Assembly (NCBI GenBank): GCA_009779975.1
Contig: WRAY01000004.1
Coordinates: 1-64,000, forward strand
Direction: 5' to 3'
DNA: 64,000 bases
DNA from: Bacillota bacterium
GTDB lineage: Bacteria > Bacillota > Clostridia > Christensenellales > Pumilibacteraceae
Shown piece by piece: positions 16,404-35,191 of the stretch (position 1 is the stretch's first letter; each line of letters begins with the position of its first letter). The notes beneath the pieces are model-generated. The model ran no database searches. It had not been told where the DNA came from and worked only from the letters and a program-made list of their open reading frames with translations. The translations under genes and the position numbers were made by a program.

Positions 16404-19400
16404 ATGAACACAAAATCATCTTTCATCCACAATAAAAAACGAAGGTTAGCGCTATTTTGTTTTATTGCGTTATTTGTTGTTATGTCTATTTTCACAATGG
16501 GCAATTTTAGTGTTGGATTTATCCAAACAGAAGCGGCTGAAAATCGTTTGATTTTTGTTCAAGTTGAAGCAGGCGAAGATTTTGCAATCGGACTGACCAT
16601 TGACGGTGAGTTATATGGCTGGAGTTTAACAAGAGAGCAAACAACATTTAATCAAAACATTAATCATATATTTTCAGGAGACGATGAATTTGAATACACA
16701 AGAAGAATGTGGAACTACACATTAGGTGATTTTTATCCGGGCATACCAACAAGAATTCCTGTTAACTTTAGAGAAATGCGTTCAAGTCCAAGTTCATACG
16801 GAGGCTTGGCAATCGGTTCGGTTAACACAATAACAAACGACAGAATTGTTCAAATCGCAGCAACAAGAACAGCGGCAGCATTTGTCACTGACAGAGGTTT
16901 TGTCTACACTTGGGGAATTGATGTTCCAAACATGGGGGTAGAAACAGAAGTTATGGAAAGGGGACTGCATCTTCCTTGGCAAAGCGGATTGCTTCACAGA
17001 AATGTTTTAGCGCGAAGTGAGAGCAGAGAAACTCCCGGAGAAGGTTTAGTCGGCGGTATTAATGAATACTTCCCAATGAGTCAGCCTTCATTTTTTGTTC
17101 CTGATTTAATTGACTTTAGAACTTTTAGATATTTTGATGCAGCTGGAAGACATGCCAGCGGAAGTGATACATTTGGAATTGCAATAGACAACAACAATAT
17201 GGAAAATGACATTGGTGCCCGCGCTCGTCGTGCTGTCAGCATTTGGGGCGGAACGGATAACTTTGTTGTTCAGCGCCATGACGGTCAATTTGCCGCTTGG
17301 GGCAATTTGACTTATATGCAAATACCTGATGACACATTCCGTCCTCAGCCATGGAGTGCAGGCACACCGGTGTCTCACTTGGGAGTAATGGGCGGTAGCG
17401 TTATTGCAGGAGCAGGTTATCTTGCCCATATCAACGGAAACGCTCTTTCAATTCAAGGACGCAATTACCATATTCCTTATTTTGGCGCTCAAGGTATTCC
17501 TTTGGGTGCGGGAGCAGGAGCGTTTTTTGAACGCAACACTTCCCATAATCCGGGTCACACGCTCTATGGAAATTTCAATCAAGGATTTTTCCCGTTAATA
17601 AATGCAAACGGTCAAGATATTTTAATGACTTTTGACGGGGCGGCAGGTGATTATTACTTGCATTGGGACTTTGACGACAATCCATTGTCTTATGATTTTG
17701 GAACATATCGTCAATCAGGCTTTCGCCGCAGACCGGACAATCCGGTGGCAATCAGAAATGCACTATTCAGTGATTTCCAAACAACAGGCGTTGCTGTTCG
17801 TTCAACTAATCCGGCAGTTCCTTTCTTTGCGGGCAGGGCAGACCAAGATTTTGCTGACGCAAGACTGCGTATGCAAAACAACACCTCTGCGAATGTTGCC
17901 CTTGGAAACGGCATAGTTTATTTTATAGATTCAACTAACAATGTCCGCTTTTTCGGAACAGACTATAATCTTGGCCATAGAGTATCTTCCGGGCATGTTC
18001 CTGCAAATCAAACTTCATTCACAGGCTTGCCGAACGCTTTTAACGCAAGACAAGTTGTCGCAGGACAAGTGCCGCTAGGCAGCAATGTTTTGTTATCAGA
18101 TGATTTCTTTGTTCCCGGAACAGGAAACAGAGAGGCATATGACACTTTGTTCAGACGAGGAGGAGATATGTTGCTAGGGGACGGAACCAGCGATCCATGG
18201 AATTGGGGTCATAGTTACGGGGATTCTCCAAGTCAAGAAGGAAGGGGCGTATTCAACAATGTCACTAACCGTTTGAGCATGAACTCAATTTTGTATGACC
18301 GTTCTGACGAGGCGCATATTTCTGCGGCACTTAGAAATGACGGACTTCAAGTTTGGGCATGGAACAGAGACGGAGACAGCACCGGCAACATGCCGGCGTT
18401 TTCCGGCGGAGCAGTTCATTTTCACAATTTCAGACTATCACCTAATCATCAAATTTCAACAATAACTTCAGGATATGGCAACAATCTTTTTGCCATCTCT
18501 TCTCAAGGCGTTATGTTTCGTATTCAATGGGAATATGACTTTGAATATAATGGCGTCACAGGATTTTTTGTTGCTCGTGCAATCGCTGACTTCCAAGATG
18601 AAAACGAAGGCACTCTTACCGGTTGGCAAACAACAGGATTGTCAAATGCACTAAGAGCTGACTTTAGAGTTAATGTCACTTGTGAGGACAACATCGGCCG
18701 CAGTTTGGGCGAGATTGCAACTGATAATGCCGTTAGAGTTCATATTGGATATTTAACTCCGGGAAACGGTATTTCACCTCATGACTTAACAAGATTGGGT
18801 TTTGGTGCGGAAAGATACGGACTAAGTTCCGGCAGATTTAGTGACTATGAAGAAAGTAAACTCGGTCATGCCTATAGATTGCTAACCGCTCCTTCAATGA
18901 CAAATCATGTGCCTTTTAATGCTATTGATTTGAATGTGACAGAAATTGATGCCAACAATCCAATTCAACCGCTTGTTCCGATTGGACAATTCGGCATGTT
19001 TTTGAAAGGAGGCAATGCAAATCAATTGGGAGAGAGAATGCCTCTTAATCCTTTTAATAATCAATTTTTTTCAATTAACATTAACCCTTTGGGAGGCTCA
19101 ACAAATCGAATTTTAAATTTTGATATAACTCCAAATCAATCAACTCAAAACGAAATAATAAGACTTGTGTTTTGGATTGGCAGAGTTGACAATATTGCAG
19201 CAATGGGCTTTGATGACGTTGACCTGATTGTCTATGAAGCAAGACCTGTTGTTTTGGATATCTACATCGGCAACACTCCTTTTGATGTTGTTTGGAACGA
19301 TGAGTTTTTAACAGATGACGGAAACTTTATTGACGGAAACTCAAGAGTTCCGCTTCTTGACCCAAATGTGACTTATGGCAGACACTATTCAGTTGCAGTC

Positions 19401-22400
19401 CACGATGTAACAGGCGGTTTCAACACTTTGAGCGGAAGAATTGCCGGCATTGCAGGAGGTGTTCACACCCAAGCAACCGTTCTTCCTAATTTCAATCTGG
19501 CAGCATATCGTGCAGATGAAGGTTTCCCTTCAAGAACCTACACGGGACTTGAAAGAAACGCAGTCGGTATAATACCAAATGCTACTCCATTGTCAGTTGC
19601 AACTTGGCAAAACGGACTAAACAGGTCAGACCAACTTGCCTACACTCTGGGAGACAACAGAGCGCAGCAGCAGTTCAACAATATCTATTCATATATGATT
19701 AGTGACATTGACGCAGATTTAGTGATGCTTCCTTCATCAATAGCAGATGACCTAAACAGCCCTGTTCGCCAACTAGTCCGCACTGTTCAGTTGAGAGTTG
19801 ACTTGAATGAAATACTCACAACTTCTCAAATGATAACTGACTTTGCTAATTTCCTTAATGTGTCTTATGGAGAATTTTTCCGTGAGTTTAACAACAGATA
19901 CGGTTTTTTCAACATCAGTTTCATAACGGAACAAAACTTTGTTCCGGGCGGTGTTCCAATCGGCACTTTGGTTTTGCATTATCAAGTTTTGATTTTCTCA
20001 GCAAGACCTAACACTGTCGGAACAAATTCAGTGACATATCTTTTCAACAACCTTGCACTGCCTGAGTTCACTCCTGTTGAAAGAACAACACCTTTGCAAA
20101 ACTCAAATGCCCACAGGTTCAACGCTCTTTTAATGGAAAGCACAGGAAGACTGCCTTCAGTAATGCCCGGGGCTATGAATATTCCTGTTATAACTGAACC
20201 GAGACCTGTCGGACTTGCTCCTCTTCCTCATATCACCGTTCACTCTCAAGCATCACTTCGCCTAGCAGGAAACTTCAGAAATGTTCCGAACATAAGCGTT
20301 GACGCTGTCGGAGTAAACGGTCAAAACATCGCAGGAGACTCTCAAGCAAACCTTGTCAGAGGTGTTGAAGGAGATAACGATGTGACTGTGAGAATTGATG
20401 CAGTTGTCGGTCGTGAGCAAACGGTTGAACTAAGTCATTTGGTCGGAGCAATTGCCGGACAAAACGACAACACTCTTGTCAGATTTGCATTTAATAACAA
20501 TAACAGTTCTTTTGGGGCTTTTGAAGAAAATATCAGAAATTCGACCAGAAACCATATGGATATTAGTTTGTCGAACACTTCATTCACATTCACTTCATTT
20601 GCTCAGATAAATAACATTAACGGTCAAATACCCGATGTCACCTTTGTTCTTAACATAATGCGTTTTACTTATGCTGATGGACAGTTTGTTCCTTTTTATG
20701 GCAGCACCGAAACGCTGACAGTGAGATTCACAATAAGAGTTGTGACTCCGCCTTTGTTCGTAAGACGCAGCGATGTGAGCAATTTGCATGTTGTCAGAGA
20801 GGACGGAGACAGGCTAATTAATCTTACAGGGATAGGCGGCAGACTGAATATGGACAGTTATTCTCAACAAAGACTGAGAGTTTTGAGCATCACAGTAAGT
20901 GACAGCACAGTCGCAACTCCGTCAATTGTTCATCAAGAAGTTTTGGACTACTATGGAAATCCTGTTCAAACACAAACTGCCGAGGCTATTTATTTTTCAG
21001 CCCACAGAAACGGCAGAGCATTTGTTGAAGTGACCTATGGATTATATATTCCGGGACTTTCACAATCGTTTTGGACACAAATAGTAGACACATTCACGAT
21101 ACTTGTTGAAGTTGATGTCCTCTACAGAACTATTCACATCACAGGTCACACCCACATTGACCACTACAACTTGGCAAGAGCAATAGAAGACGGAAATCCG
21201 GGAGTTCAGTTCACCGGACTAAGCCACAACAGAAATTTCGGTGAAAACGAACAAGGCTTTGAAATTCAAACAAGAGAAGGTGCGACTGCTCCATGGGTGA
21301 CAGTTCCAAGAACCCAATGGCCGCTGTTTATCCAAGAAATCCGCTATGACGGCGCTCGCACCAGAATTGACATAAGGCCGTCTCTTAATCAAATTGAAAC
21401 AAGGATAATGTTTAGTTTTGCCGGAACGGTCAGCATTGAAGGCGTTTTTGGACTTCGCACTGACAACTTCTTTGTCTATGCTATTCTTTCGCCGATAACA
21501 AGGCATTTGATAGTCGACGGAGACATCTATACAGTCAGGCTCTCCGGAACAAATAACCCCAGAACTTATAGTTTGTTATCTCATGGCGCTTTTGGAGTAA
21601 ACGGACTTTTCGACAACGCTGAATACGGATTAGACACATTCTTTGGCTACAACCCAAGAATAATGAGAGCAAGGTATGCAGAAAATTACCTAAATCAAAG
21701 AGGCAGATATTTTTTTGACTACAATCTGAACAGCGACGGAACAGAAATAACCTTCTATGGGTTGTGGCCGACTAAAGTTGGAGACACGCCTTTGACAGGA
21801 GAAGAATTGCCAGTTTTTGCGCTGATTATTCACGACACAAACGGTCAAGCATTTAATGTTTTGTTCAATGTCGAAGTTGTTGACATTCTCGTTGACCTAA
21901 CAAGACAGCAATATGTCAATATCTTGTGGATAACAGCATTGTCGCTTGTTATCATAGTGTTTATATTCTTCCTCATCAGTCTTTTGGTATACTGGACAAA
22001 ACGCGCTCGACAAAGACGAATTGTTGCGAAAAACCAAATGATTATCAAAATGCGTGACAAAGTTCACAATAAAGAAACCCACACTCAAGCGAATGTTGTC
22101 AAAGCCAGAATGAACATGGACGACCCGAGGTATCAAAAAATGTATACCAAACTTAGAGAAGAAAAAGAACTCGAGGCGGGAATAACACTGACGACTATTA
22201 ACGCTCAAAAAGCCGAAAAAGGAACAAAAAAGAAGAAAAAAGGCGGCAAGCGTTCAATTGAAGAACTAAAAGAAGAATTGGCGGCAAAAAGGGCTCAAGT
22301 GACTGCAATGCAAACTGAGACAATGCAGCAGCCAATGGACGATCCATGGGCAAACAGCGGAATGGATATGGATACAACGCAGGGCAGCCCCTACAGAGCG

Positions 22401-22493
22401 GAGTTAACAAGAGAACAAATTGAGCAGCAAATTAAAGAAAAACTAGGCTCAGAACCAATGATAGAAGTAGAAAGCGAGCCAATCATAGAATAG
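16404..22493 (+). CDS. Giant single-span surface protein with RCC1-like N terminus
   Basis: 2029 residues. A signal/anchor segment (about 16-40) exports the chain. The first few hundred residues contain RCC1-type motifs (EAGEDFAIGLTIDGELYGW, RTAAAFVTDRGFVYTWG); the rest of the ectodomain is beta-rich and aromatic/Asn-rich without a family I recognise. A span at about 1838-1862 (ILWITALSLVIIVFIFFLISL) is followed by a cytoplasmic tail of some 165 residues with a Lys cluster (KGTKKKKKGGKR), predicted helices and an acidic end. The next gene has the same topology. Both precede two cytoplasmic acidic/coiled-coil proteins, so a membrane-to-cytoplasm scaffold is inferred. The Shine-Dalgarno AAGGAAAA supports the start. 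Confidence 0.85.
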   Translation: MNTKSSFIHNKKRRLALFCFIALFVVMSIFTMGNFSVGFIQTEAAENRLIFVQVEAGEDFAIGLTIDGELYGWSLTREQTTFNQNINHIFSGDDEFEYTRRMWNYTLGDFYPGIPTRIPVNFREMRSSPSSYGGLAIGSVNTITNDRIVQIAATRTAAAFVTDRGFVYTWGIDVPNMGVETEVMERGLHLPWQSGLLHRNVLARSESRETPGEGLVGGINEYFPMSQPSFFVPDLIDFRTFRYFDAAGRHASGSDTFGIAIDNNNMENDIGARARRAVSIWGGTDNFVVQRHDGQFAAWGNLTYMQIPDDTFRPQPWSAGTPVSHLGVMGGSVIAGAGYLAHINGNALSIQGRNYHIPYFGAQGIPLGAGAGAFFERNTSHNPGHTLYGNFNQGFFPLINANGQDILMTFDGAAGDYYLHWDFDDNPLSYDFGTYRQSGFRRRPDNPVAIRNALFSDFQTTGVAVRSTNPAVPFFAGRADQDFADARLRMQNNTSANVALGNGIVYFIDSTNNVRFFGTDYNLGHRVSSGHVPANQTSFTGLPNAFNARQVVAGQVPLGSNVLLSDDFFVPGTGNREAYDTLFRRGGDMLLGDGTSDPWNWGHSYGDSPSQEGRGVFNNVTNRLSMNSILYDRSDEAHISAALRNDGLQVWAWNRDGDSTGNMPAFSGGAVHFHNFRLSPNHQISTITSGYGNNLFAISSQGVMFRIQWEYDFEYNGVTGFFVARAIADFQDENEGTLTGWQTTGLSNALRADFRVNVTCEDNIGRSLGEIATDNAVRVHIGYLTPGNGISPHDLTRLGFGAERYGLSSGRFSDYEESKLGHAYRLLTAPSMTNHVPFNAIDLNVTEIDANNPIQPLVPIGQFGMFLKGGNANQLGERMPLNPFNNQFFSININPLGGSTNRILNFDITPNQSTQNEIIRLVFWIGRVDNIAAMGFDDVDLIVYEARPVVLDIYIGNTPFDVVWNDEFLTDDGNFIDGNSRVPLLDPNVTYGRHYSVAVHDVTGGFNTLSGRIAGIAGGVHTQATVLPNFNLAAYRADEGFPSRTYTGLERNAVGIIPNATPLSVATWQNGLNRSDQLAYTLGDNRAQQQFNNIYSYMISDIDADLVMLPSSIADDLNSPVRQLVRTVQLRVDLNEILTTSQMITDFANFLNVSYGEFFREFNNRYGFFNISFITEQNFVPGGVPIGTLVLHYQVLIFSARPNTVGTNSVTYLFNNLALPEFTPVERTTPLQNSNAHRFNALLMESTGRLPSVMPGAMNIPVITEPRPVGLAPLPHITVHSQASLRLAGNFRNVPNISVDAVGVNGQNIAGDSQANLVRGVEGDNDVTVRIDAVVGREQTVELSHLVGAIAGQNDNTLVRFAFNNNNSSFGAFEENIRNSTRNHMDISLSNTSFTFTSFAQINNINGQIPDVTFVLNIMRFTYADGQFVPFYGSTETLTVRFTIRVVTPPLFVRRSDVSNLHVVREDGDRLINLTGIGGRLNMDSYSQQRLRVLSITVSDSTVATPSIVHQEVLDYYGNPVQTQTAEAIYFSAHRNGRAFVEVTYGLYIPGLSQSFWTQIVDTFTILVEVDVLYRTIHITGHTHIDHYNLARAIEDGNPGVQFTGLSHNRNFGENEQGFEIQTREGATAPWVTVPRTQWPLFIQEIRYDGARTRIDIRPSLNQIETRIMFSFAGTVSIEGVFGLRTDNFFVYAILSPITRHLIVDGDIYTVRLSGTNNPRTYSLLSHGAFGVNGLFDNAEYGLDTFFGYNPRIMRARYAENYLNQRGRYFFDYNLNSDGTEITFYGLWPTKVGDTPLTGEELPVFALIIHDTNGQAFNVLFNVEVVDILVDLTRQQYVNILWITALSLVIIVFIFFLISLLVYWTKRARQRRIVAKNQMIIKMRDKVHNKETHTQANVVKARMNMDDPRYQKMYTKLREEKELEAGITLTTINAQKAEKGTKKKKKGGKRSIEELKEELAAKRAQVTAMQTETMQQPMDDPWANSGMDMDTTQGSPYRAELTREQIEQQIKEKLGSEPMIEVESEPIIE

Positions 22494-22640
22494 TCAACGC
22501 ACAACGCATAATGCACAATGATTGTTAGAATTAATATTAAAATATTCTATACTTAGCATTGTGCACTATGTATTGTGAATTAAAAAAAATTCTGTCTTTC
22601 ATTATGCGTTATGCGTTATGCACTATGCATTGAAAAAAGG
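22494..22640. repeat. Heptamer inverted repeat (ACGCATA family) between the giant genes
   Basis: The left arm is CAACGCACAACGCATAATGC then ACAATG; the right part is GCATTGTGCACTATGTATTG and later CATTATGCGTTATGCGTTAT then GCACTATGCATTG. The 7-bp unit is clear. It abuts the ribosome site of the next gene and creates a false 10-codon upstream extension from 22618. Confidence 0.85.
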
Positions 22641-22647
22641 TGTCATT

Positions 22648-25600
22648 ATGAAAACAAAACAATTTTCAATAAAACGAAATATACTGATAGCGGCGTTTGC
22701 AGCGCTCATAAGTGTTTTGATAGCGCTATCATTTTCCATTGTCTTTAATAACAACAGGGCAATAAATGCAACTGCGAGCGGTGAAATATCAACACCCGAT
22801 GCAAATGTTACCGTTTGGAATATTGTGTTGAACATCAACGGAGTTGCAAATCCTGATGTTGAATCTGTGAGAGGTTCATCTTTTGTGCCCGGTTCTGTTA
22901 TTTATAATAACGGAGCAGGTATCAATCCTGCACGGTTTAGGGAAAGGACTTTAACCAGCAGCCTTTTTACTGACAATGATGCTTTGGGGGTTGAAGTTGG
23001 GGTTTTTGAAAACTGCAGCACCGGTACTCTTCAAGTTTATAACACTTTTGGAAATTTTTTCAGTATAGTTCCGACAGGCGATTCAACTAATGGTCATTTC
23101 ACTATCACTGCTCATCGCAGAATTGACAGCGCAACAGCAAGAATTTTGGTTGGAGCAGGAAGCAATCGCAGAGCGCACTACTTGCACATAGAAGTAACGA
23201 ATGCTTTTGAAATCACAAATTTTTATGTCGGACACTCGGTAGGGTCATCTCTTTACACAATCCCTGTTCGTAATTTTGAGAGTTTTTCATTTGACTTTAA
23301 TCAAAGGCTGTTAAATCGTAATCTTTTTGAAGATTTCAATGAAGCCGGCTTCGTTGACCAAATACTAGAGGGCGGAGTTTCATCTCCTTCAAGGCAAATC
23401 AGCAGTTTGCAAGGATTGAGAGTGACAGCAGTAAGAATGCGTTCATTCAACAACCAATATTTCTTCGGAGGTCCCGCTCCGAACAACACTAATGAATTTG
23501 TCGATGTTTCTTCGCAATTCAGAGCAGACGGAACGCCTTCACTATATATGGGTTTCAACCTCAACAACAGTGTTTTATCAGTTGCAGGTGACAACAGAGA
23601 AGATCTTTGGTTTTCTGAAAATTTCCGCAATATTCATGTTATGGAAATTGTCATGAACTTTGACGGAATAGGCTCGTTCACAGCCAAATATTTGATAAGG
23701 TTTATTCAGCAAACAGTTCCTAGTGCGCTAAATCCTTTTAGAGTGGCAACAAGACTTAATGCCGGAATTGAAAGAAGCGACCCTAATCACACTTTCTCAA
23801 ACCCAACAGACAATCCAAATTTGCCGGGCCGTTCTTTTTGGCAAACAAGAGTTTATGTCAGGTCTTTGGTTGTGTTCTATGGTATTGAAGATGCAAGATT
23901 TTGTGATGTAAATCCATGGGAAGCGCCAAGTGATGATGACGGCGCTTATTCACGAATTGAAATCAGCGGACCATATCTTGATGCGTTCGGCGAAGAGTTT
24001 ATTCTAGTCAGTTCAGCAGACCCGGTTGAAGTTGACCTCAATCTTATTGAAGGGCCTGCTCCTGTCAGATTTCGTATTGTTTTTCCAAGAGTTGATGAAG
24101 GAAGCGGAAGTATTTCTCGTCCTTCTAACCTCTACACTGTGAATTTCCAAGTCTATGGAATTCATTCAGTTGACCGTATAACCGTCTATAGAAGCAGCAT
24201 AGACATGGATGTTTCAGGAATTACTCCGCTGGCAGAGTTTGTCAGAAGAAACTACAGGCTTGACTCTGTTGAGATTGACGACGCTTATAGCATCACTGCT
24301 CAAGTTATCAGAAATCACAGAACAATAAGTTTCAGAAATGCTGTTGACGGCGAATCTGTGGAGGCTACTTTTGTCTTCACAAACATGGAAGGAAGAACAA
24401 TTCGTGCTCCCGGGACGATTGTTGTCAACTTTGGCTACAACAACTGGTGGGCAGGATTACAATCTTGGCAACGAGTGCTATATATTGTTTTACTCGCTGT
24501 TATCATCCTGCTATTGATTTTATTCTTTGTTTTCTTGTTCTTAAGAGGATTGATGAGAGCAAGAAGGGAAGAGCAAGAGGCAGTAGTGCCGCAAAGTGCA
24601 TATTTGGTCAAACTCAATCAAACGATTGCCGCGGCTCAAGCACAAAGGCGAATGACTCAAACAACTCATTCTCATGTTCAACTGAATCCGGCAGTATCAA
24701 GAGATATGTCAAACTCATCTCACAACTATGATGTAACTCATAATACTAATATTTACAGGATAGGCGCCGGCGGACAGCATCCGGCATCAGGCACGACAAC
24801 AACAACCGACACTCAAATGCTGTCGTCCGGAGTTTCTCATGGGCATAGTCATGGCTATGGTTATCAACAGCCAATCAACAGTTATGCACACACACGCATG
24901 GAAGACATCTATATTCCAATAACTGACGAAGAACTCCTAGAGAGAATCTATAAAGAAAAATACGCACCTCGCGGCATGACAGAACGCTCTTTTGAAAAAT
25001 CAAGAGATTTGCAAGACAGAGAGTTGGAAAAAGAAAAGAACCGTATCAGAGAACTCATCAAAGCAGGCGTGCCTGTTGATGAAGCGTGCAAAAGCGAAAA
25101 ACAACTTGAAGCCGAAAGGGAGGCAATTATGTTCGGAGAAAACCAAAATAGCGGTGTAATGGGTTCAAGCACGACGGCGATTATCCATATTCTTGGATTT
25201 GACCCTCTTGCCCCAACTGTTTCTGAAGAAGAATTTGAAAAAGACACTACCTCTTCATCGCCTCAAATGATAGTTGATGAGTTTGGCGAAGAAAGACTTG
25301 TCTTTGACGAAATGATGCCTGAAGATACGGCATTCAACGAGGCTCAAAGAGAACTCAAAAGGCAGCAAAAAATTCTTGCTGAACTTGCAAAAAGAGATGA
25401 AAAAATTGATGAAGCGGTTGCAAACTATGAAAACATGGTCAAAGCAAAGCAAGACGAATTGGGTCAACTTGATGATGACATAAGAAGTTTGACTGAAAAG
25501 TCTGCTGATTTGGATGTCCTGATTGCATCTTCAAGAGGTAAAGAAAGAGAGAAGTATATCAAAGAAAGAGAAATCGTTGAAGAGCAACTTGGCAATGCCA

Positions 25601-27951
25601 AAAAGAAAAGAGACCAAATTGCGAATGAACTCAATGAATGTGAACCGATACTTGAAGAGTTGAAGAAAGTTCAAGAACAGAACAAAAAAGATATTGCAGC
25701 AGCACAGACCGCTCTCGTTGTTGCGGAAAGAGAACTTAAAAAAGCAGAGAAGGCGGCAAAGGCGGCAAAAGAAGCAAGGATTAACGGACAGTTATACACT
25801 ATGCTTGAATCTGTCGCAAGAGTGGACAGAGATTTGTCTGAAGCAAACAAAAAAATCGCTGACTTAACTGAAAAGAAAGGTGAAGCAAGAGATGAGATTT
25901 CTCGCCTTCAAACAAAACTTCTGTCAACTACTGACCCTGAAGAAATAGCGGCAATCAACGCTCAAATTGAAGCGAAAAACAATCAAATCAAAGACATCGA
26001 CAGAGAACTCGAAAGACTAAGCAAAGTCAAGAAAGACAAAGAAAGAGAGTTGACGGCCGGTGTCAGACAGTCTAATGACTTTGTTATCAAAAACAAAGTT
26101 CCCTATGAAACTGTTGTTCGGCTTGAAGATGAAGCGCTCAAAGTTGTTGCGGCAGAAAATGCTTCAAGAGTTGCCAAAGAAGAACTTGAAAGGGCAAAGG
26201 TTGCCTTTGAAGAAAGCCAAAGAAAATATGAAAAACTCATCGCCGATATTGATGACGAGTTGGCAGCGGCTCAAAACGCTTTGAATGAACAGTTAAAAAT
26301 TATTGAAGAAGAAGCGGAAGCATTAAAAAATCAACTTGAAATGATAGATGCTGAAATGGAGAATGCGACTGAAGAAGAAAAACTTGATTTAATGCTAAAA
26401 CGCATGGAACTTGCAGAGCAACTTGAGCAAAAGCAAAGAGAAGCGGAAGAAAAACGAGAAGAAGGCATCAAGAAAAACCTTGAGAAAAAGGCAGAACTTG
26501 ACGAGAAGTTGAAAGATGCTGAAGAGCGGATGGAAAATGCGAAAAGAGCGCTCGACAACGCTGAAGAGGATTACAAAATGGCTCTTCAAAAATCTTCTGA
26601 GGACTCACAAGCAACCTTCATTCCATCAGGAAGCGGCATAGTTTCTCAAGAAAGACTGGGTCAAGAAATCGAAGAAGCAAGATCTCGCTACAACAGAGCA
26701 ACAGACGAAGTTGAAAAAGCCGAACACTATGCAAGGCTTACTGCTCTTCAAGCCCACAAAGCAGCGCTTGAAGCAGAAAGGGCAACTGATGCAAATCGTG
26801 AAAAACTTGAAGAAAGAGCAAAAGATGCTCAACGAGAAGCCGACAAAGCAAGAGCGGACTATGAGGCTATCAAACTTGCAAAAGAGAGAGAAGAGCAACT
26901 CCGCAAAGAAAGACTTGCCGAGGCTGAAAGAGAGGCTGAACTTCGTGAGAGAGAGTTGAAAGTTCGTGAAGCGGCACTTGCAACCGAAAGAGAAGAAGAG
27001 AAACTAAAAGCAGAACAGCGTGCTTTAAGAATAGCAGGACTGGAAGAAGAAGAGGCATTGACAGAGGCTGAAGCAATTCGCAAAGCAGAACGAGAAGCCG
27101 AGATGGCTCGTCAGCAAGTAGAGAAAGATGCTGAAATATCTCGTCAGCAAGCAGAACTGGACGCAAAAAAGACAATGCTTGATGCTGAAGGCGAGGCTGC
27201 AAAAATGATGCGTGAGGCTGAGGTTGAGGCTGCGAAATTGCGTCGTGAAGCAGAAGAAGAGGCTGCAAAACTTGCTCGTGAGCAAGGCATTGTTGCCGGT
27301 GCGCCTTCTGCAACTGACTCTGACAAAATAGCAAGAAGAAAGCATGAAATTCTCACCAAACGAGAAAAACTAAAAGACATCAAAACCGAAAAAGAAGGAC
27401 TTGACTTAAAAGAAGATTTTGTCAACACTCAAATGCGTTTTGATGACGAGGAAAAGACTAATCTTGATTTAGCACTCTTGATTGAACGCTCAATTGCTGA
27501 TGCTCAACTTGCGGCAGAACGAGCAAAATACAACGAACTTGCGAACAAAGAAAAAGAAGTTGTTGAAAGAGTTGTTGAAAAAGAAAAGTTAGTTGAAAAA
27601 GATTCTAAGCCTTATGAGAAAAAATACACTAAAAAGGTCGTAGAACGAGTCAACAAAATCCATCGTGAAGTGCCGAGCGGCAAAAAGAATGTCAAGAAAG
27701 TTCCTCGCCCTGCTTCCGCTGGCGGACGCCCAAAACCCGGTTCAAAAACAAGACCGGGAACAAGACCGGCAAGACCCGGGGCAAGGCCGGTAAGACCGGG
27801 AACAAGACCGGCAAGACCTGGGGCGGCAAGAAGACCCGGTTCAAAAGCAGGAGCAGCAAGAAGACCCGGAGCGGCAAAAAGACCGGGAGCAAGACCGGCA
27901 AGACCCGGGGCAAGGCCGGTAAGACCGGGGTCAGCAAAACCAAGAAGATAG
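22648..27951 (+). CDS. Giant transmembrane coiled-coil protein with basic RPG-rich tail
   Basis: 1767 residues from ATG 22648, chosen because AAAAGGTGTC precedes it and MKTKQFSIKRN starts the signal/anchor; the frame is open to 22618 through repeat DNA. Order: signal segment (11-33); beta-rich ectodomain to about 608; span about 610-634 (VLYIVLLAVIILLLILFFVF); His/Gly/Ser-rich linker about 670-755 (SHGHSHGYGYQQ); coiled coil about 885-1650 (heptad Glu/Lys/Ala/Leu with many EREAE-type runs); basic tail 1660-1767 with repeated RPG/RPA units. Topology puts the coiled coil and basic tail in the cytoplasm. The two following genes encode strongly acidic heads, so charge pairing with this tail is a reasonable inference. 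No enzyme domain is seen. Confidence 0.87.
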   Translation: MKTKQFSIKRNILIAAFAALISVLIALSFSIVFNNNRAINATASGEISTPDANVTVWNIVLNINGVANPDVESVRGSSFVPGSVIYNNGAGINPARFRERTLTSSLFTDNDALGVEVGVFENCSTGTLQVYNTFGNFFSIVPTGDSTNGHFTITAHRRIDSATARILVGAGSNRRAHYLHIEVTNAFEITNFYVGHSVGSSLYTIPVRNFESFSFDFNQRLLNRNLFEDFNEAGFVDQILEGGVSSPSRQISSLQGLRVTAVRMRSFNNQYFFGGPAPNNTNEFVDVSSQFRADGTPSLYMGFNLNNSVLSVAGDNREDLWFSENFRNIHVMEIVMNFDGIGSFTAKYLIRFIQQTVPSALNPFRVATRLNAGIERSDPNHTFSNPTDNPNLPGRSFWQTRVYVRSLVVFYGIEDARFCDVNPWEAPSDDDGAYSRIEISGPYLDAFGEEFILVSSADPVEVDLNLIEGPAPVRFRIVFPRVDEGSGSISRPSNLYTVNFQVYGIHSVDRITVYRSSIDMDVSGITPLAEFVRRNYRLDSVEIDDAYSITAQVIRNHRTISFRNAVDGESVEATFVFTNMEGRTIRAPGTIVVNFGYNNWWAGLQSWQRVLYIVLLAVIILLLILFFVFLFLRGLMRARREEQEAVVPQSAYLVKLNQTIAAAQAQRRMTQTTHSHVQLNPAVSRDMSNSSHNYDVTHNTNIYRIGAGGQHPASGTTTTTDTQMLSSGVSHGHSHGYGYQQPINSYAHTRMEDIYIPITDEELLERIYKEKYAPRGMTERSFEKSRDLQDRELEKEKNRIRELIKAGVPVDEACKSEKQLEAEREAIMFGENQNSGVMGSSTTAIIHILGFDPLAPTVSEEEFEKDTTSSSPQMIVDEFGEERLVFDEMMPEDTAFNEAQRELKRQQKILAELAKRDEKIDEAVANYENMVKAKQDELGQLDDDIRSLTEKSADLDVLIASSRGKEREKYIKEREIVEEQLGNAKKKRDQIANELNECEPILEELKKVQEQNKKDIAAAQTALVVAERELKKAEKAAKAAKEARINGQLYTMLESVARVDRDLSEANKKIADLTEKKGEARDEISRLQTKLLSTTDPEEIAAINAQIEAKNNQIKDIDRELERLSKVKKDKERELTAGVRQSNDFVIKNKVPYETVVRLEDEALKVVAAENASRVAKEELERAKVAFEESQRKYEKLIADIDDELAAAQNALNEQLKIIEEEAEALKNQLEMIDAEMENATEEEKLDLMLKRMELAEQLEQKQREAEEKREEGIKKNLEKKAELDEKLKDAEERMENAKRALDNAEEDYKMALQKSSEDSQATFIPSGSGIVSQERLGQEIEEARSRYNRATDEVEKAEHYARLTALQAHKAALEAERATDANREKLEERAKDAQREADKARADYEAIKLAKEREEQLRKERLAEAEREAELRERELKVREAALATEREEEKLKAEQRALRIAGLEEEEALTEAEAIRKAEREAEMARQQVEKDAEISRQQAELDAKKTMLDAEGEAAKMMREAEVEAAKLRREAEEEAAKLAREQGIVAGAPSATDSDKIARRKHEILTKREKLKDIKTEKEGLDLKEDFVNTQMRFDDEEKTNLDLALLIERSIADAQLAAERAKYNELANKEKEVVERVVEKEKLVEKDSKPYEKKYTKKVVERVNKIHREVPSGKKNVKKVPRPASAGGRPKPGSKTRPGTRPARPGARPVRPGTRPARPGAARRPGSKAGAARRPGAAKRPGARPARPGARPVRPGSAKPRR

Positions 27952-27954
27952 TTG

Positions 27955-28037: not shown

Positions 28038-28061
28038 GTCGCCGACAAATGAGGTGTCATT

Positions 28062-28682
28062 ATGGCAAAAAATGAAAACTACGAAGAATACGAAGAAGAA
28101 ATCATAGAGAGAGATGAGTATGTCGATGTTCCTGTTGATGAGGAAATCGAAGAATACGACGAGGACGACTATGATGATGACTATGACGATGACGAGTATG
28201 ATGACGATGAATACTACGACGACGAAGATGAGTATGACGATGAATACTACGACGAAAACGAAGACAGGTTTGAGCAAATCTTTGAGGAACTAAGGCAACT
28301 TAGAGCCCAACTATCTCATAACGCTCAGCCTTATCCCTATCATCAGCCATACCCCTACATGGGCATGGGCATGCCTTTTATGATGCCATATATGCCATAT
28401 CCTCAATACTATGGACCGTCTCCGAATGAGATAAACATGTATAATGAATTGGGCAGAATAAGGGATGATTTGACAAGGCAGAACAATGCGTTTGTCACTC
28501 ACACCGAAGTAGCAAGACTTCAATATGACATGTCAAGAGATCATCAAAGAAATGAAGATATGCTCAACATGGAAATAAGAAGGCTTAACGACAGGATAGC
28601 CCAAAAAGAAAGAGAAGTTCATTATCAACAACAAGCCTATCTGCCTCCGCCTCAACAAAGAGAAAGAAGGGAAAGATACTAA
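28062..28682 (+). CDS. Acidic-head, aromatic/Pro-rich cytoplasmic protein
   Basis: 206 residues, no signal peptide or span. Residues 1-67 are almost only Asp, Glu and Tyr after a shared opening (YEEYEEEIIERDEYVDVPVD). A short amphipathic helix follows, then a Pro/Tyr/Met-rich stretch (about 88-122, PYPY and MPYMPYPQYY), then a helical part with INMYNELGRIRDDLTRQ and an Arg/Gln-rich end. The opening and the YNELxRxRDDLTRQ motif are shared with the 2098-aa neighbour, so they are paralogous. The ribosome site GAGGTGTC is nearly identical to that of the 1767-aa gene. Acidic plus proline-rich composition recalls the APR segments of Mycoplasma cytadherence proteins, but no homology is claimed. Confidence 0.83.
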   Translation: MAKNENYEEYEEEIIERDEYVDVPVDEEIEEYDEDDYDDDYDDDEYDDDEYYDDEDEYDDEYYDENEDRFEQIFEELRQLRAQLSHNAQPYPYHQPYPYMGMGMPFMMPYMPYPQYYGPSPNEINMYNELGRIRDDLTRQNNAFVTHTEVARLQYDMSRDHQRNEDMLNMEIRRLNDRIAQKEREVHYQQQAYLPPPQQRERRERY

Positions 28683-28683
28683 T

Positions 28684-28742
28684 TTATTAACGAAAAACGC
28701 ACAATGCACAACGCACAATTATTGGGCGTTGTGCATTGAAAA
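28684..28742. repeat. Heptamer inverted repeat (ACGCACA family)
   Basis: ACGCACA ATGCACA ACGCACA on the left, GGGCGTTGTGCATTGAAAA on the right with an ATTATT loop. It may act as a terminator of the 206-aa gene. Confidence 0.8.
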
Positions 28743-28809
28743 TTTTAATGATTAACTAGTGTTGAACAAAAAATGAAAAAAATATTTTATGAAAATATGA
28801 GAAAGAGGC

Positions 28810-28838
28810 TTGAATTAAATAAAAATATGTGGTATACT
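28810..28838 (+). promoter_or_regulatory. Sigma-A promoter of the 2098-aa coiled-coil gene
   Basis: TTGAAT (28810-28815), 17-bp spacer, TATACT (28833-28838). The leader of about 50 nt carries (CA)n and the ribosome site GAGAGGAAGAG. Confidence 0.85.
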
Positions 28839-28894
28839 ATACTGTGAGTAATACTATATATCACTAAAAGCACACACACACGAGAGGAAGAGTT

Positions 28895-31800
28895 ATGCCA
28901 AAAGATAACAATTACGAAGAATACGAAGAAGAAATTATCGAACGCGACGAATATGTTGATGTTCCTGTTGACGAAGAGTATGAAGAATACGACGACGAAG
29001 AGGAATACGACGACGAATACGATGATGAAGATGAGTACTACGACGAAGAAGAGGAGTACGATGATGAGGACTACCCTGAAGAAGATGGGTATGACGAAGA
29101 CCATTATGACGAAAGGTTTGAGCAAGTGCTTGATGAAATTGATGACATCAAACGCAATGCTTCGCTTGCTCGTCCGGGTCAGCCCATGCCGCCGCAATAT
29201 CATCCTCATCCAACTGTTATCATGTCACCACCGCCACCACCGCCGCCACCGTCAAATGATTTGAACATCTACAACGAGTTGTCAAGATTAAGAGATGATT
29301 TGACACGCCAGCAAGGAGCACAAAACACTCACGCAGAAGTTGAAAAACTGCGTGGGCAACTTTTGAGTGAACATCGTAGAAATGAGGATATGCTTGTCAA
29401 CGAAATAAGACGATTACAAGACCGTTTTGATGAGTTAGCATCCAATCCGCCGCCGCCGCCGCAAAATCACTACAACAACCAATCACCGCCGCCTCAAAGA
29501 GAGGAAGGAGGGCGTCCTAATATGTATGAGAACAAACTGCATGCTGTCTTGATTGAACTGAAGAAAAAATTGTCCGAACTTGCGGACAAAGAGACCGCGC
29601 ATGATTTGCAAAAAAAAGTGGAAGAACTAAAAAGAGAAGTTGGAATTGAGCATGGTGCTCTCAGTGCCAAAATTGTTGAAATTCAGCATATTGCAGCAAA
29701 ACTTCCTTCGATGTTTGAAACAGTAGAAGCGTTGAGAAACGAAATAAAAACAATGCCGCAAGGCAATGTTGATTTAAGACCGGTTCTTTTAAGGCTTGAT
29801 GAAATAAGAGCACTTTTTGCAACTCCTTTGAAAGAAGCGGATTATTCTCCGATTTTGACAAAAATCGATGAAGTGACCGCACTGGTATTGTCAGACAGAG
29901 AAGTTGTTGACAAACTAAATGATTTGCAAGGAATTATTTCAACGGCAAACTTTGATGTCAATGAAGTAATCACAAGACTTGATGCAATTTGGGCGCATAT
30001 TTCTATTCCTAACAACGAAGAAGTTTTGGCAAAACTTGACGAGATTGAAAAAACATTCTCAAATGAAGCGGTTCTTGAAAGAATTGAAGAAGTTGCTCAA
30101 GAGGTCAGAGCATTTTCAAATTCAAGCATTAAAGTTGACCCTGAGTCTGTTCATGTTGACCTCTCTTCTGTCATTGACAGAATTGAGGAATTAAAACTTT
30201 TCTTAAACCAAGAAACCGACTTAGGTCCGGTCATGCAGAAACTCGATGAGATTTTGCTGAATAATTTGGTCGCATCATCATCACCAAGTCAAGACGAGCA
30301 AATGAGAGAAGTCCTTCAAAAAATTGAAGAATTGAAATTCTCAACTCCTATTGCAACTCTTGATGACGAGGGAGAGCCGGCGACACTGGATCTTTCTCCG
30401 ATACTTGAAAAAATTGAAGAAATCAAAATTTCTCAAAAAGAAGAGTTATATCCGATTATTGAAAGAATTGATGAATTAAGAGAGAATGCTGTTCATGAAG
30501 TTTCTTCAAAAAATGAAATTTCAACTTCGCAGTTGAGTGAAAAACTGGACAGAATTGTTGAATCTGAAACTTATCTAAATGAAAAAATCGACAGAATCTA
30601 TGAACAAGAAAACAACCTAAACCAAAAAGTCGACAAAATTTTTGAGCAAGAAGTTGCTATTCAAGACAAAGTCACCTCGCTTGAAGACATTATTTTAAGC
30701 GTTATTTCGCAACTTCCTGATGTTCAAAAAATTGAAGACACTAACGAAAAAGTAGACAAAATTTGCTCTCAAGAAGAAGAGACGCTGAACAAAATTGATG
30801 CACTGCAAGGGACTGTTTTGTCACTTTCTAATCTTGGGATAGAGAAAGAAAGAATCTATGAATTGCAAAAATCAATAGATGACATCAAAAATCAATGCAA
30901 TGCTTTGGAAGGAAAAGATGTTGATTTATCGCCTGTTGTCGAGCAAATAATCGACATCAAAAATGATATCTATCACCTTGCATCTCGTGATGAGATAACT
31001 CCTCTTGCTCAAACAATAAAAGAAGAATACAATGCGCTGCATGAAAAAATTGACACTATGCCTCATGGCGAAGTGTTGACCGAAGTTGTTGCGGTGCGTC
31101 AAAGAGTGGAAGATTTGCACGCTGAAGTTCAAAATTTCAAACTTGATATTCTAACTCAAGACAACCCAGACACTGTAACAAAAGACGACATAGGCGACTT
31201 AAAACACACTCTTGCAGTGGCTCATAACACCTATATCGACACCCACAAAAAAATTGAAGAGTTGTTTGCGGACATTGAATTTTTGAAATCTTCAGTTCAA
31301 AACAACCAAGAGCATATCGACATCATCAACAAAAATTGCGAAGTAACAAACGACAATTTTGAAAAAGTCCGCTCGGGTTTTGAAAAAGTTATATCCGAAA
31401 TTCAAGCAATAAAAGGTTCATTTGTCGAAGTTGAGAACGCTGACGGTGAAAAAACCGTTGTTCAAGACGAGGGTCTAAGAAGTGCTTTGAGTGAAGTTAA
31501 TGACAAACTCTCCTCCGTTCTTTATGGTTCTCCCGACACCGATGTTGACAATATTCAATTTATCTTAACTTCACTTAGTGACATCAAAGAAAAACTCGGT
31601 GCAACTCCCAGTGTTGACGGTGACATGAGCAAGATTTTGGATGACCTTGCTTATTTGAGAAACCAAGTTGAAGCAAACACAACAGATGATGACATAGATT
31701 TAGCTGCAACATTTACCAACGAAGAATTGGGAATGATTCATGACGAACTAAGGCAAATTACTGATCGTCTCATAAACCAAGACAGCAACAATTTGGTTGA

Positions 31801-34800
31801 AGAACTGTCCGCTATTCGTGACGAATTCAAAGCAACTCTAATACTTGAGCAGCACGATGTAATAAAAGAAATCGAGAGTCTAAAAAGTGAACTAGGCACT
31901 CTTAAAGATGACTTGGCACTAATTGCAGACCTCAGAAGTGAATTGAGTGTCTATCATGGTGAAGTAAAAGGCGTGACAGACGGCGTTATTTCAAAAGACG
32001 GCGAAAGTTTGACGAGCGGTGAAATAAACCAAGTTTTGCAAGAAATTGTTTCGCTTCGTGACGAGTTGCAACTTTTCAGAGACAGTCATAATGCTCCTAT
32101 TGAGAATGAAGAGGGTATTTTGCTTGAAACTCAAATGCCCGTTGCAGATGAAAATCTTACCATTCTTTTGGAAGAGTTTGCACTGTTGAAAGCGGAACTT
32201 CTTGATAATCCTGTCTTTAGTGAAATTGAGGAAATAAAAGAAATTCTACTCCGCAGAACAAGGTCACAATCTCTGTCCGATGAAGCAGTGAGCAATGAGA
32301 GAGTGACAGAAGAAGGCGAAGAGTTTGTTGTTAATGAACAAAGCATTTCAACAAATGCTTTAGATGTTGTTCTTGACGAACTTGATGCAATAAAAAAAGC
32401 GCTTGCAAACAAAGAAGAAGAAGAAACTTATCCGCAAGCAATATCGTCGGAATTGAGAGACGAGTTGGAGTTTATCAAAAGCCAACTCAGCGACATTCAA
32501 CTTTCTCGCATACTCACGCTAACTGACGAGCAAGATGGTGAAAACGAGGGGAATGCAGCAGCACAATCAACACTTCAAACAATCGCTCTTAGTGACGAAT
32601 TAAAAGAAGACCTAGAGTTAATCAAACGACAACTCGAAGCACTATTTGAAAAAAATACAGGAGTGACAAACGACATCGGCGAAGAAGAGAGCAGTCACTA
32701 CTTGCAGCCTTTGTCCGAAACAATAAGAGAAGACCTTGAATTAATAAAATCACAACTCAATGACCTTCAACTGGGTAACGCTTTGATGCAAGATGAAAGA
32801 GAAGAAGCAGTCTCTATTTCTTCCGGTAATGAAGTCCTCTTAGAGTTGAGAAATCTGCGTGATGAAATGATAAGCGAAATTCAAGGACTTTTGAGAAATG
32901 AGACTGTTGAAAAAGAAGATGTTCCGTTATTCGATGACCTTCGCCTAATAAGAGATGAAATCTTAGGTGTCAGAGGTGATATTCAATCAATAAAAGAAGA
33001 GCCTGATTTTAGCGTAATTAAAGAAGTATTGACGCTAAGAGAAGAATTCCAAGCATTCAAAGACGAACTCTATGAAACTCGTCAAGAATTGAAAAAACCG
33101 TCCAATGAAGATATTTTGACAGAGGAATTAAATCTCTTCAAAAATGAATTAAAAGGCGACATCAACGAATTGAAAGAGTTTGGCATTTCCTCGGCAATAG
33201 ACCCTGCAATTTTTGTTGAATTAAAAAATGATATTCTAGGCGAAATAAAAGAATTTTCAACTGAAACTGAACCGCAAGAAATTTTAAATATTTTGCGTGA
33301 TGAGTTTACTATTATTCGTGAACAGATTAATTCTTTGAAAGAAAAAGAAGAAAGGTCAGCCTATGAATTGGAAGGCAATTCTTATCAAGACGACATTTCA
33401 AAGCATGAAGAACTAATCGCAGAATTCAGAGTTCTAAGAGATGAAATAAATGAATTGAGAGTTGCGCCTCTTGCCGCTCAAGAAGAGACAGGCGAACAAG
33501 TGGACATCGCAAGTGAATTTAAGTCGCTAAGAGAAGAATTGTTTGAATTAAGAAATATTCCCGACCCGATTGCCCCCCAAGTTGTTGTTGAGCCAAGCGA
33601 GCAATACTTTGCCGTCTTGGAAGAGTTCCGTGCAATAAAAGACGAAATCACTTCTTTAAAAGTTGAAAGGGCAGAGGTTGCTGACACTGCGGCAGTTCAA
33701 CAAAATAACGAAATATTCAATGAACTTCGTGACGGTTTGTTTGCACTAAGAGAAGAAATAGCACTCTTAAAAATAGAGCAGCCTCAAGTGCAAGTCGTTG
33801 AAACAGAGCAAAATACGCAGTTATTTAACGAACTGAAAGAAGGTATTTTTGCTCTTAGAGATGAAGTCGCAACTCTAAAATCGGATCAGCCAAAAGCAGC
33901 AAACAACAATGACGAAATTCTTTCTCAAATAACAGATTTAAAAACGGAAATGCTTGCTCAAAGAGAGGCGGACTCAACAAGTGTTAGTTTCATGGCTGAG
34001 ATGGCAAGGCTTTTAGAGCGTCAAAATCAATATATTAACGAGTTATCAACCGTCCGCATGGCAAAAGAGATGGCAAATCTCAGAGATGAGATTGTTGCAT
34101 CACTTCCGTCAATTTTGAGAGATGAAATGCCTCAAGTTCCTAACTTTGAGGGAGAACTTGTTAAAATGAGAGAGGAGTTGACAGCGGCGAGCGGTGCAGT
34201 TGTCGACAACGCAACTATTCTTGACGCACTCTCAAAAATCTATAACGAAGTTTCAAATGAAAAAGACAGCGAAGAAAGAAGGTTAATCTTGTCAGAAATC
34301 TCTCGCCTCAATTCATCACTGACTCATATTTCGGACAGAGAAACAAAAAGCAGTGTCATCAACGAAAAATCTCTTTCTCGTGCGGTAAGCGATTTGAAAT
34401 CAGAGTTAAACAGCATTGCAGGCATCGTCAGAAATGAATCTAACATAACTGAAAATATTTTCAACAGATATGAAACAATTGAAAACAAAGTTCAGTCATC
34501 AGAGTCTAAAAAATCAGCAACCAGCAAAAAAGCACAATCAAGTTCAAAACAGTCATCAAGCAAAAAGTCATCATCCGCAAAAGGAGCAACAGCAAAAAAG
34601 CAGCCTCAACCGGAAATTAAAACTGAAAAAGAACCTGTTGAGATAGCGCCTGAAACTATTGAAAAAACTCCGCCGGCAAAACAGCCTCCAAAGCCAAAAC
34701 CAAAGCCGCCGGCGAAAAAAACAAAAACAGTAAAACCGAAAGATGAAGAGTCATCATTTTCACAATTTTTCCACGAAGAGCGCCATGAAGAAGAACACGC

Positions 34801-35191
34801 TTTCTTCCAACAAGAAATGTCGGCAGAAGAATTGATTAACAAAATCGAGTCGGAAAGCCAAGGCTTCAAAGGAGACAAAAAGACGGAGGAACTAGGTGTT
34901 ATTCCCGAAAGAAAAAGAACAACAGGGGAGAGAGCAACTTTGTCGAATGACGAATTGGAAATAGCATCTCGTCTTGCAAAGCAAGTTGCCAACAAACTAA
35001 TAATGGAACAACTGGTTCAACAACTAGGCGATGGCGGCGTTCCAAAAGCAAAAGTTGATGAAATTGTTCGTGACATCTTGCCGCAAGAATTCACAACTAT
35101 TGCAATGAATGAGCAAACCGACCAAGTCAGAAGAATAGCAAACCAACTAGTTCTTGACAAACTTCGTTCACGCTTGACAGGCAGAAAATAA
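28895..35191 (+). CDS. Giant acidic-head coiled-coil cytoskeleton-like protein
   Basis: 2098 residues, no signal peptide or span, so cytoplasmic. Residues 1-77 are an Asp/Glu/Tyr head with the same opening as the 206-aa protein; 100-120 is Pro-rich (a run of eight Pro); the shared IYNELSRLRDDLTRQ follows. Residues about 150-1860 are predicted helix/coiled coil with recurring LRDELxxLK-type and EDLELIKSQL-type units. About 1868-1960 is a Lys/Ser/Pro-rich linker (PKPKPKPP), and 2008-2098 is a compact C-terminal domain with LAKQVANKLIMEQLVQQL. The build (acidic head, rod, linker, end domain) suits a filament or tether. Own promoter, and a strong terminator follows. Role is inferred from composition and position only. 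Confidence 0.87.
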   Translation: MPKDNNYEEYEEEIIERDEYVDVPVDEEYEEYDDEEEYDDEYDDEDEYYDEEEEYDDEDYPEEDGYDEDHYDERFEQVLDEIDDIKRNASLARPGQPMPPQYHPHPTVIMSPPPPPPPPSNDLNIYNELSRLRDDLTRQQGAQNTHAEVEKLRGQLLSEHRRNEDMLVNEIRRLQDRFDELASNPPPPPQNHYNNQSPPPQREEGGRPNMYENKLHAVLIELKKKLSELADKETAHDLQKKVEELKREVGIEHGALSAKIVEIQHIAAKLPSMFETVEALRNEIKTMPQGNVDLRPVLLRLDEIRALFATPLKEADYSPILTKIDEVTALVLSDREVVDKLNDLQGIISTANFDVNEVITRLDAIWAHISIPNNEEVLAKLDEIEKTFSNEAVLERIEEVAQEVRAFSNSSIKVDPESVHVDLSSVIDRIEELKLFLNQETDLGPVMQKLDEILLNNLVASSSPSQDEQMREVLQKIEELKFSTPIATLDDEGEPATLDLSPILEKIEEIKISQKEELYPIIERIDELRENAVHEVSSKNEISTSQLSEKLDRIVESETYLNEKIDRIYEQENNLNQKVDKIFEQEVAIQDKVTSLEDIILSVISQLPDVQKIEDTNEKVDKICSQEEETLNKIDALQGTVLSLSNLGIEKERIYELQKSIDDIKNQCNALEGKDVDLSPVVEQIIDIKNDIYHLASRDEITPLAQTIKEEYNALHEKIDTMPHGEVLTEVVAVRQRVEDLHAEVQNFKLDILTQDNPDTVTKDDIGDLKHTLAVAHNTYIDTHKKIEELFADIEFLKSSVQNNQEHIDIINKNCEVTNDNFEKVRSGFEKVISEIQAIKGSFVEVENADGEKTVVQDEGLRSALSEVNDKLSSVLYGSPDTDVDNIQFILTSLSDIKEKLGATPSVDGDMSKILDDLAYLRNQVEANTTDDDIDLAATFTNEELGMIHDELRQITDRLINQDSNNLVEELSAIRDEFKATLILEQHDVIKEIESLKSELGTLKDDLALIADLRSELSVYHGEVKGVTDGVISKDGESLTSGEINQVLQEIVSLRDELQLFRDSHNAPIENEEGILLETQMPVADENLTILLEEFALLKAELLDNPVFSEIEEIKEILLRRTRSQSLSDEAVSNERVTEEGEEFVVNEQSISTNALDVVLDELDAIKKALANKEEEETYPQAISSELRDELEFIKSQLSDIQLSRILTLTDEQDGENEGNAAAQSTLQTIALSDELKEDLELIKRQLEALFEKNTGVTNDIGEEESSHYLQPLSETIREDLELIKSQLNDLQLGNALMQDEREEAVSISSGNEVLLELRNLRDEMISEIQGLLRNETVEKEDVPLFDDLRLIRDEILGVRGDIQSIKEEPDFSVIKEVLTLREEFQAFKDELYETRQELKKPSNEDILTEELNLFKNELKGDINELKEFGISSAIDPAIFVELKNDILGEIKEFSTETEPQEILNILRDEFTIIREQINSLKEKEERSAYELEGNSYQDDISKHEELIAEFRVLRDEINELRVAPLAAQEETGEQVDIASEFKSLREELFELRNIPDPIAPQVVVEPSEQYFAVLEEFRAIKDEITSLKVERAEVADTAAVQQNNEIFNELRDGLFALREEIALLKIEQPQVQVVETEQNTQLFNELKEGIFALRDEVATLKSDQPKAANNNDEILSQITDLKTEMLAQREADSTSVSFMAEMARLLERQNQYINELSTVRMAKEMANLRDEIVASLPSILRDEMPQVPNFEGELVKMREELTAASGAVVDNATILDALSKIYNEVSNEKDSEERRLILSEISRLNSSLTHISDRETKSSVINEKSLSRAVSDLKSELNSIAGIVRNESNITENIFNRYETIENKVQSSESKKSATSKKAQSSSKQSSSKKSSSAKGATAKKQPQPEIKTEKEPVEIAPETIEKTPPAKQPPKPKPKPPAKKTKTVKPKDEESSFSQFFHEERHEEEHAFFQQEMSAEELINKIESESQGFKGDKKTEELGVIPERKRTTGERATLSNDELEIASRLAKQVANKLIMEQLVQQLGDGGVPKAKVDEIVRDILPQEFTTIAMNEQTDQVRRIANQLVLDKLRSRLTGRK

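Follow-up and report, generated by a model that had tools for sequence, protein, structure and literature searches.

A three-gene core of giant envelope and cytoplasmic proteins as a candidate division-linked scaffold in a family of Clostridia

Genes and proteins of the block

The stretch of DNA analysed here, 64,000 nucleotides from a gut-type Bacillota bacterium of the family Pumilibacteraceae (the window), corresponds to contig 4 of a genome of 2.03 Mb with a GC content of ~40%, and contains Clostridia-type gene fusions (IspH-S1 and FakA-DegV-type). Four consecutive plus-strand genes, designated A to D, had been put forward in an earlier reading of the letters alone (the sequence-only reading) as a candidate envelope-spanning scaffold, and we confirmed the four open reading frames at the coordinates given there. 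Three of these genes, A, B and D, recur in the same order in relatives, nearly all of which have them within the division and cell-wall (dcw) cluster. The features of the block are as follows.

16103..16131, plus strand: promoter-like site 5' of A (TTGACT-17-TATAAT, 11/12; consensus match only)
16404..22493, plus strand: gene A, 2029 residues
16542..18683, plus strand: A, RCC1-like repeat region (residues ~47-760), profile matches to Pfam RCC1-type models
21921..21977, plus strand: A, predicted membrane span, residues 1840-1858
22618..27951, plus strand: gene B, 1777 residues
22750..24477, plus strand: B, ectodomain, residues 45-620, predicted tandem beta-sandwiches (AlphaFold2, mean predicted local distance difference test score, pLDDT, 65)
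24484..24540, plus strand: B, predicted membrane span, residues 623-641
24589..25215, plus strand: B, conserved cytoplasmic region with SxYxxKLNxxIAAxQxQ, DEELLERIxxEKYxPRGM and LGFDP motifs
25255..27297, plus strand: B, helical rod, from heptad/helix analysis
27319..27663, plus strand: B, conserved C-terminal region ending in a KKVxERVN motif
27664..27948, plus strand: B, basic tail of RPG/RPA repeats
28062..28682, plus strand: gene C, 206 residues
28895..35191, plus strand: gene D, 2098 residues
28895..29119, plus strand: D, acidic Asp/Glu/Tyr head, residues 1-75
34949..35188, plus strand: D, conserved 80-residue C-terminal domain (59-79% identity, 12 orthologues)
35214..35255, plus strand: terminator-like hairpin 3' of D (19 pairs, T-rich tail; consensus match only)

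Since the promoter-like site, ~270 bases ahead of A and rated strong by consensus match only, and the hairpin after D enclose an interval in which no strong plus-strand terminator was found, A-B-C-D likely form one operon read as a single transcript. In relatives, the A-B-D genes abut or overlap (e.g., G018 and G027). An Rfam scan gave no match near the block. Searches of A-D against Pfam, NCBIfam, PHROGs and PDB profiles returned RCC1 in A as the sole family; no SMC/Rad50 ATPase head domain was found, and the weak coiled-coil matches to SMC/Rad50, far under the cut-offs, were rejected as compositional together with those to designed proteins. Judged by the libraries searched, B, C and D are covered by no known family, and our literature searches found no description of the block, in agreement with the suggestion that the apparatus had not been described before.

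Proteins A and B are both predicted to be single-pass, with a large N-terminal part outside and a C-terminal part in the cytoplasm, as had been proposed with ectodomains of ~1800 and ~575 residues, respectively. In A, a hydrophobic signal/anchor segment (residues 15-33) precedes the ectodomain, and a basic cytoplasmic tail with the conserved motif YWxKxAxQRRIxxKNQ follows the span. RCC1_2 exceeds its cut-off in A, all 15 of 15 A orthologues have RCC1-type Pfam matches, and a profile of the region matches RCC1/HERC/UVR8 structures. As in known RCC1-repeat proteins, the N-terminal part of A is thus made of RCC1-type repeats in every orthologue; unlike them, A would carry its propeller outside the cell, on a single-span protein of 2000 residues. 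The beta-rich ectodomain continues past the propeller region (AlphaFold2 mean pLDDT of 57 for residues 760-1900). Closely upstream of A (14069-15487), a stand-alone RCC1-repeat lipoprotein of 472 residues is encoded, with a 58% identical copy upstream of A in G001 (L060:206-1615), and it may be a fifth partner of the block in this genus.

In B, a hydrophobic N-terminal signal (residues 24-42) precedes the ectodomain, and orthologue alignment indicates that the ATG at 22648 may be the true start. The best Foldseek matches of the ectodomain model were cadherin/Ig arrays and the surface-layer proteins SbsB/SbsC; given their low template modelling scores, the predicted beta-sandwich is a statement of fold class only. 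The motif columns of the cytoplasmic region are invariant across 14 orthologues. The part that follows had been described as a coiled coil with a basic RPG tail. The tail is indeed present in all full-length B proteins whose 3' end is covered, but the coiled-coil description holds for part of the rod only: heptads were detected over residues ~880-1330 (50% of windows), and none in the Glu/Ala/Arg-rich charged helix of residues ~1330-1560. In a related genus (g2), a cytosolic paralogue of the B end region (L157:7065-8612 and L158:6734-8401) ends in a Lys/Ala-rich tail resembling histone H1, which bears on a nucleic-acid-binding role considered below.

No membrane span was found in C or D, and C matches the D head at 57% identity (E=3e-36), consistent with the earlier view of two cytoplasmic proteins sharing an Asp/Glu/Tyr head. 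C appears to be a local duplicate of the D head and the helix after it, and outside this genome it was found in G020 alone. Of the four-protein scaffold first suggested, the conserved unit thus comprises A, B and D, with C a local extra. The D head, acidic in every D of the full systems, is followed by a short proline run (residues ~92-120) and then by ~1650 residues of interrupted helix (residues 190-1850). With 44 prolines in this region and a patchy heptad signal (p<0.05 in just 11-43% of windows per region), D is better described as an interrupted helical/coiled-coil array than as the 2098-residue coiled coil it had been taken for. Near-identical tandem repeats of ~35 residues enlarge D in two relatives (G002 and G021; L120:5322-7187 and L119:4635-7904), whose assemblies break there, and such repeats could be a route to a longer scaffold. 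A mobile or phage origin was also considered and set aside, as a viral scan with the D end domain gave no relatives.

Occurrence in relatives and position in the dcw cluster

Of the 61 genomes searched, 14 members of the same family encode A and 13 encode long B; neither was found in 24 other families of the order. Long B is always accompanied by A; the contig of the additional A genome (G001) ends inside A. The order A-B-D is kept in 12 further genomes of the family, with some copies split such that D of G021, part of D of G002, and part of B plus D of G036 lie on other contigs. Complete copies measure ~1.75-2.03 (A), 1.68-1.81 (B) and 2.0-2.3 (D) thousand residues. Since order, length and end features are kept in these genomes while protein identity is only ~20-35%, the association of A, B and D goes beyond chance. 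The lack of co-occurrence in relatives that would have spoken against a co-conserved envelope-spanning scaffold did not appear, and that proposal is supported to this extent.

Profiles of the D end domain and B end region gave no further convincing match across the order (396 genomes) and the phylum (398 genomes); in the phylum-wide scan, the D end domain had one borderline match outside (E=0.009). A contig scan with B returned solely an RPG-tail match in Tabrizicola, taken as chance. In a second family, one genome (G066) encodes an RPG-tailed protein, with a KVTER motif preceding the tail, and then an acidic-headed D-like protein in which the end domain is detectable (E=1.6e-6). The third gene after this pair (L114:774-6302) encodes a zinc-ribbon/coiled-coil protein of 1842 residues with several C-terminal spans, perhaps an alternative membrane anchor for the same core.

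The genes around the relatives' blocks were named by similarity and reading of products, not from curated annotation. By these names, the dcw cluster of nearly all relatives contains the operon or an abbreviated B-D form of it, ahead of murA-ftsQ-ftsA-ftsZ. In 11 genomes (G015, G018, G019, G020, G027, G030, G031, G036, G308, G343 and G385) murA stands 3' of D, followed where covered by ftsQ/divIB, ftsA, ftsZ, spoIIGA and sigE; in G020 and G036 extra genes are interspersed in this run. On the upstream side, mraZ, rsmH, a penicillin-binding protein gene, mur genes and ftsW precede the block in G018. The end of D precedes murA-ftsQ-ftsA-ftsZ on another contig in G002, spoIIGA-sigE directly follow D in G005, and serC is the divergent neighbor of A in nine genomes. 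A position between mraZ-ftsW and murA-ftsQ-ftsA-ftsZ was thus found across genera of relatives, and not in the genome of the window.

For genomes without A, we located FtsA first and then inspected the interval from serC/serA to murA. Short forms of B and D (B' and D') were found there as pairs in G012 (636/636 residues), G034 (638/651), G016 (672/723), G028 (708/841), G011 (354/752) and G024 (314/~740), and D' alone in G023 (1134), G033 (1030), G008 (983), G035 (129) and G029 (122). The B' forms lack an ectodomain and have a single span, at the N-terminal end; the LGF[DN]P motif, often present in B', and YESYNNIILDEI, often present in D', are common to short and giant forms. Since short forms occupy the same site, and in outgroup families (G043 and G044) ftsW directly adjoins murA without B-D, the pair appears to be a family-specific insertion in the dcw cluster, of which giant A-B-D is an elaboration.

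Some short pairs lie elsewhere. A B'-D' pair adjoins a divergent parA/soj gene rather than the dcw cluster in G006 and G022 (L074:6261-7073 and L075:3454-4269), a pair of 667 and 264 residues lies outside the dcw cluster of G013 (L159:294-3131), and a small pair in G004, with the D end domain conserved, stands at another place. In three dcw clusters of the family (L129, L131 and L134), serA-serC are inserted between ftsW and murA, and murG was not recognized.

Charge coupling between the B tail and the D head

The last 100 residues of B have a net charge of +30 and the first 100 of D one of -44. Over 21 pairs, the charges of tail and head are inversely related (Spearman -0.86), and adjacent control segments of the two proteins show no significant relation. 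Independent contrasts on an FtsA tree gave r=-0.86 (p=9e-7, 19 contrasts, 13 of them of the expected sign); in the same framework, B and D lengths are related with r=0.91 (p=2e-8). A, the B ectodomain and the giant forms disappear together across the tree, and in two sister pairs one member is full and the other reduced by joint loss (G010 and G024; G020 and G004). The charge pattern is mostly a joint gain or loss of the B tail and D head.

The co-variation supports a functional coupling of the two ends, and it suggests that the B tail may bind the D head directly. The electrostatic match noticed in the single sequence thus extends to charges that co-vary across the phylogeny, and both ends recur together in the second family. 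If the ends do bind, their charge match would be a simple assembly rule.

Proposed role and competing explanations

Given that relatives keep A-B-D within the cell-division gene cluster, we propose an undescribed cell-shape or division structure: a lineage-specific trans-envelope scaffold tied to cell division or envelope morphogenesis, to which we assign a probability of roughly 0.5. A and B would be secreted and inserted by their single spans, and their ectodomains would fasten the scaffold to the cell wall or the outer surface. Inside, the RPG tail of B could grip the Asp/Glu/Tyr heads of D electrostatically, and D could multimerize or dock via its conserved end domain, so that the B rod and the D helical array reach from the membrane far into the cell interior (up to ~100 nm for the B rod, and a longer distance for D in an extended state, both upper bounds at 0.15 nm per helical residue). 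Judging from the gene position, such a scaffold may act at the septum or pole, as a mark or a brace, and link envelope assembly to FtsA/FtsZ. A small membrane-anchored B and a small D would have made up the ancestral core; protein A, the giant forms and the B ectodomain, together with the RPG tail and the acidic head, would be an added module that is acquired or lost as a whole. The dcw cluster is among the best-studied bacterial gene neighborhoods, and an undescribed gene pair within it, present throughout a family and ranging from 122 to >2300 residues, would be a new division or envelope player; the series of intermediates also shows how a giant cytoskeletal scaffold might evolve.

Several observations weigh against this proposal. 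In the genome of the window, the block has been relocated beside tgt, with the dcw cluster on a different contig (C27), which is why the dcw link is invisible from the window; in G010 a recombinase follows the block, and in G009 the site is empty of B-D, yet ftsQ, ftsA and ftsZ are present. The position of a gene may also be inherited without a common function. As for the charges, controlling for D length leaves a partial correlation between tail and head of -0.62 (p=0.005), and controlling for B length one of -0.46 (p=0.05); among the 11 full systems the trend does not reach significance (rho=-0.46, p=0.15), and the correlation rests on few transitions between full and reduced states.

SpoIVA is encoded in nearly all genomes of the family and MreB in all sampled but one incomplete genome, so the cells are probably walled sporeformers. 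Every sampled genome of the family has SepF. In 29 of 37 relatives a weak DivIVA gene lies apart from the block, and none was found in the genome of the window. With SepF in all, MreB in nearly all and DivIVA in most genomes, the block is no obvious substitute for any of them, and we discarded the idea of a stand-in.

DivIVA/GpsB and TipN/PopZ are coiled-coil scaffolds organizing the septum or pole, and divIVA is dcw-linked in many Firmicutes. A-D may share such a scaffold role, PopZ and TipN being functional analogues from established knowledge, whereas A-D are far larger, bear ectodomains and have no sequence match to these proteins (including no match to the DivIVA domain PF05103). In topology, with a span at the N-terminus and then a long helical part in the cytoplasm, B' matches EzrA, the Firmicutes regulator of the FtsZ ring, and B' is here encoded in the dcw cluster; full B adds an ectodomain and the RPG tail, and no Pfam match to an EzrA/spectrin-like domain was found in B, its 14 orthologues or the short forms.

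The sequence-only reading had pointed to the Mycoplasma terminal organelle and, with it, to adhesion or gliding. In such an apparatus, the A and B ectodomains would bind surfaces, the B-D core would transmit force or hold adhesins at one pole, and the dcw site would reflect an organelle duplication coordinated with division. The propeller and cadherin/Ig-like ectodomains fit binding, and the two systems share giant helical proteins, single-span surface partners and an operon near dcw genes: in M. pneumoniae, the P65-HMW2 operon (MPN309-MPN310) is close to mraZ-mraW-ftsA-ftsZ (MPN314-317) (PMC7737663). P65 combines an acidic disordered N-terminus, a coiled coil and a C-terminal helical domain, a build resembling that of D, and stabilizes the membrane protein P30 and the core protein HMW2 (PMC11940719). 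Nonetheless, no terminal-organelle Pfam or NCBIfam model and no EAGR box was found in A-D or in 14-15 orthologues of A, B and D, no homologue of the core families (P65, HMW1-HMW3, P30) and no motor or adhesin family emerged from the A-D scans, and the DPN(Q)AY acidic-proline repeats are absent from the D head, which is acidic and Tyr-rich. The host, moreover, has wall and spore genes (MreB and SpoIVA), unlike Mycoplasma, the ectodomains consist of an RCC1 propeller and predicted beta-sandwiches, and the ancestral short B'-D', without ectodomain, is still at the dcw site. We therefore regard the resemblance as one of analogy only, the nearness of the P65-HMW2 operon to division genes being its one genuine parallel, and with the genomic context pointing to the division and cell-wall cluster instead, adhesion or gliding seems unlikely.

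A broader and tentative extension of the scaffold proposal is a trans-envelope division or polar organelle that arose within a lineage of walled sporeformers, as a parallel and not a relative of the Mycoplasma one. Starting from a dcw-encoded protein of 122 residues and its small partner in the membrane, it might have grown stepwise to scaffolds of 2000 residues, connected through a charge-matched Arg-Pro-Gly tail and Asp/Glu/Tyr head, and later have gained extracellular propeller and beta-sandwich arms.

Slightly more doubtful than adhesion or gliding is a surface-layer-like or structural adhesin complex, with a merely historical dcw position and B-D only anchoring the surface proteins from inside. 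Large beta-rich ectodomains with SbsB/SbsC among the Foldseek matches would suit it, as would the retention of the block in this genome after it left the dcw cluster; on the other hand, B and D stay at the dcw site in ectodomain-free relatives, and the most conserved residues are in the cytoplasmic parts.

Two further explanations appear improbable, and to a similar degree. The RPG tail could bind nucleic acid, with B tethering the nucleoid to the membrane and the D head a competitor or unrelated; tails rich in Arg/Pro/Gly or in Lys/Ala are characteristic of proteins that bind nucleic acids, and both the H1-like tail of the g2 paralogue and the parA/soj neighbors in G006 and G022 would agree with this, whereas the co-varying charges and the recurrence of acidic head and RPG tail as a pair in the second family speak against it. 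A scaffold specific to sporulation, serving the septum, engulfment or a tether of the forespore, might be read from spoIIGA, sigE and sigG after ftsZ in the same cluster, from the D of G005 directly before spoIIGA-sigE and from SpoIVA in nearly all these genomes, but relatives that lack A or giant forms encode SpoIVA just as often, and spoIIGA-sigE adjoining ftsZ is ordinary in sporeforming Firmicutes.

Elsewhere in the window, two further large surface proteins are encoded. The first (1396-5223; 1275 residues) has a signal, beta-rich repeats with weak LapB-repeat and OmpL47 matches, a C-terminal span and a short tail, and the second (54860-60358; 1832 residues), which could be assigned to no family, is lipoprotein-like with a leucine-rich helical stretch towards its C-terminus.

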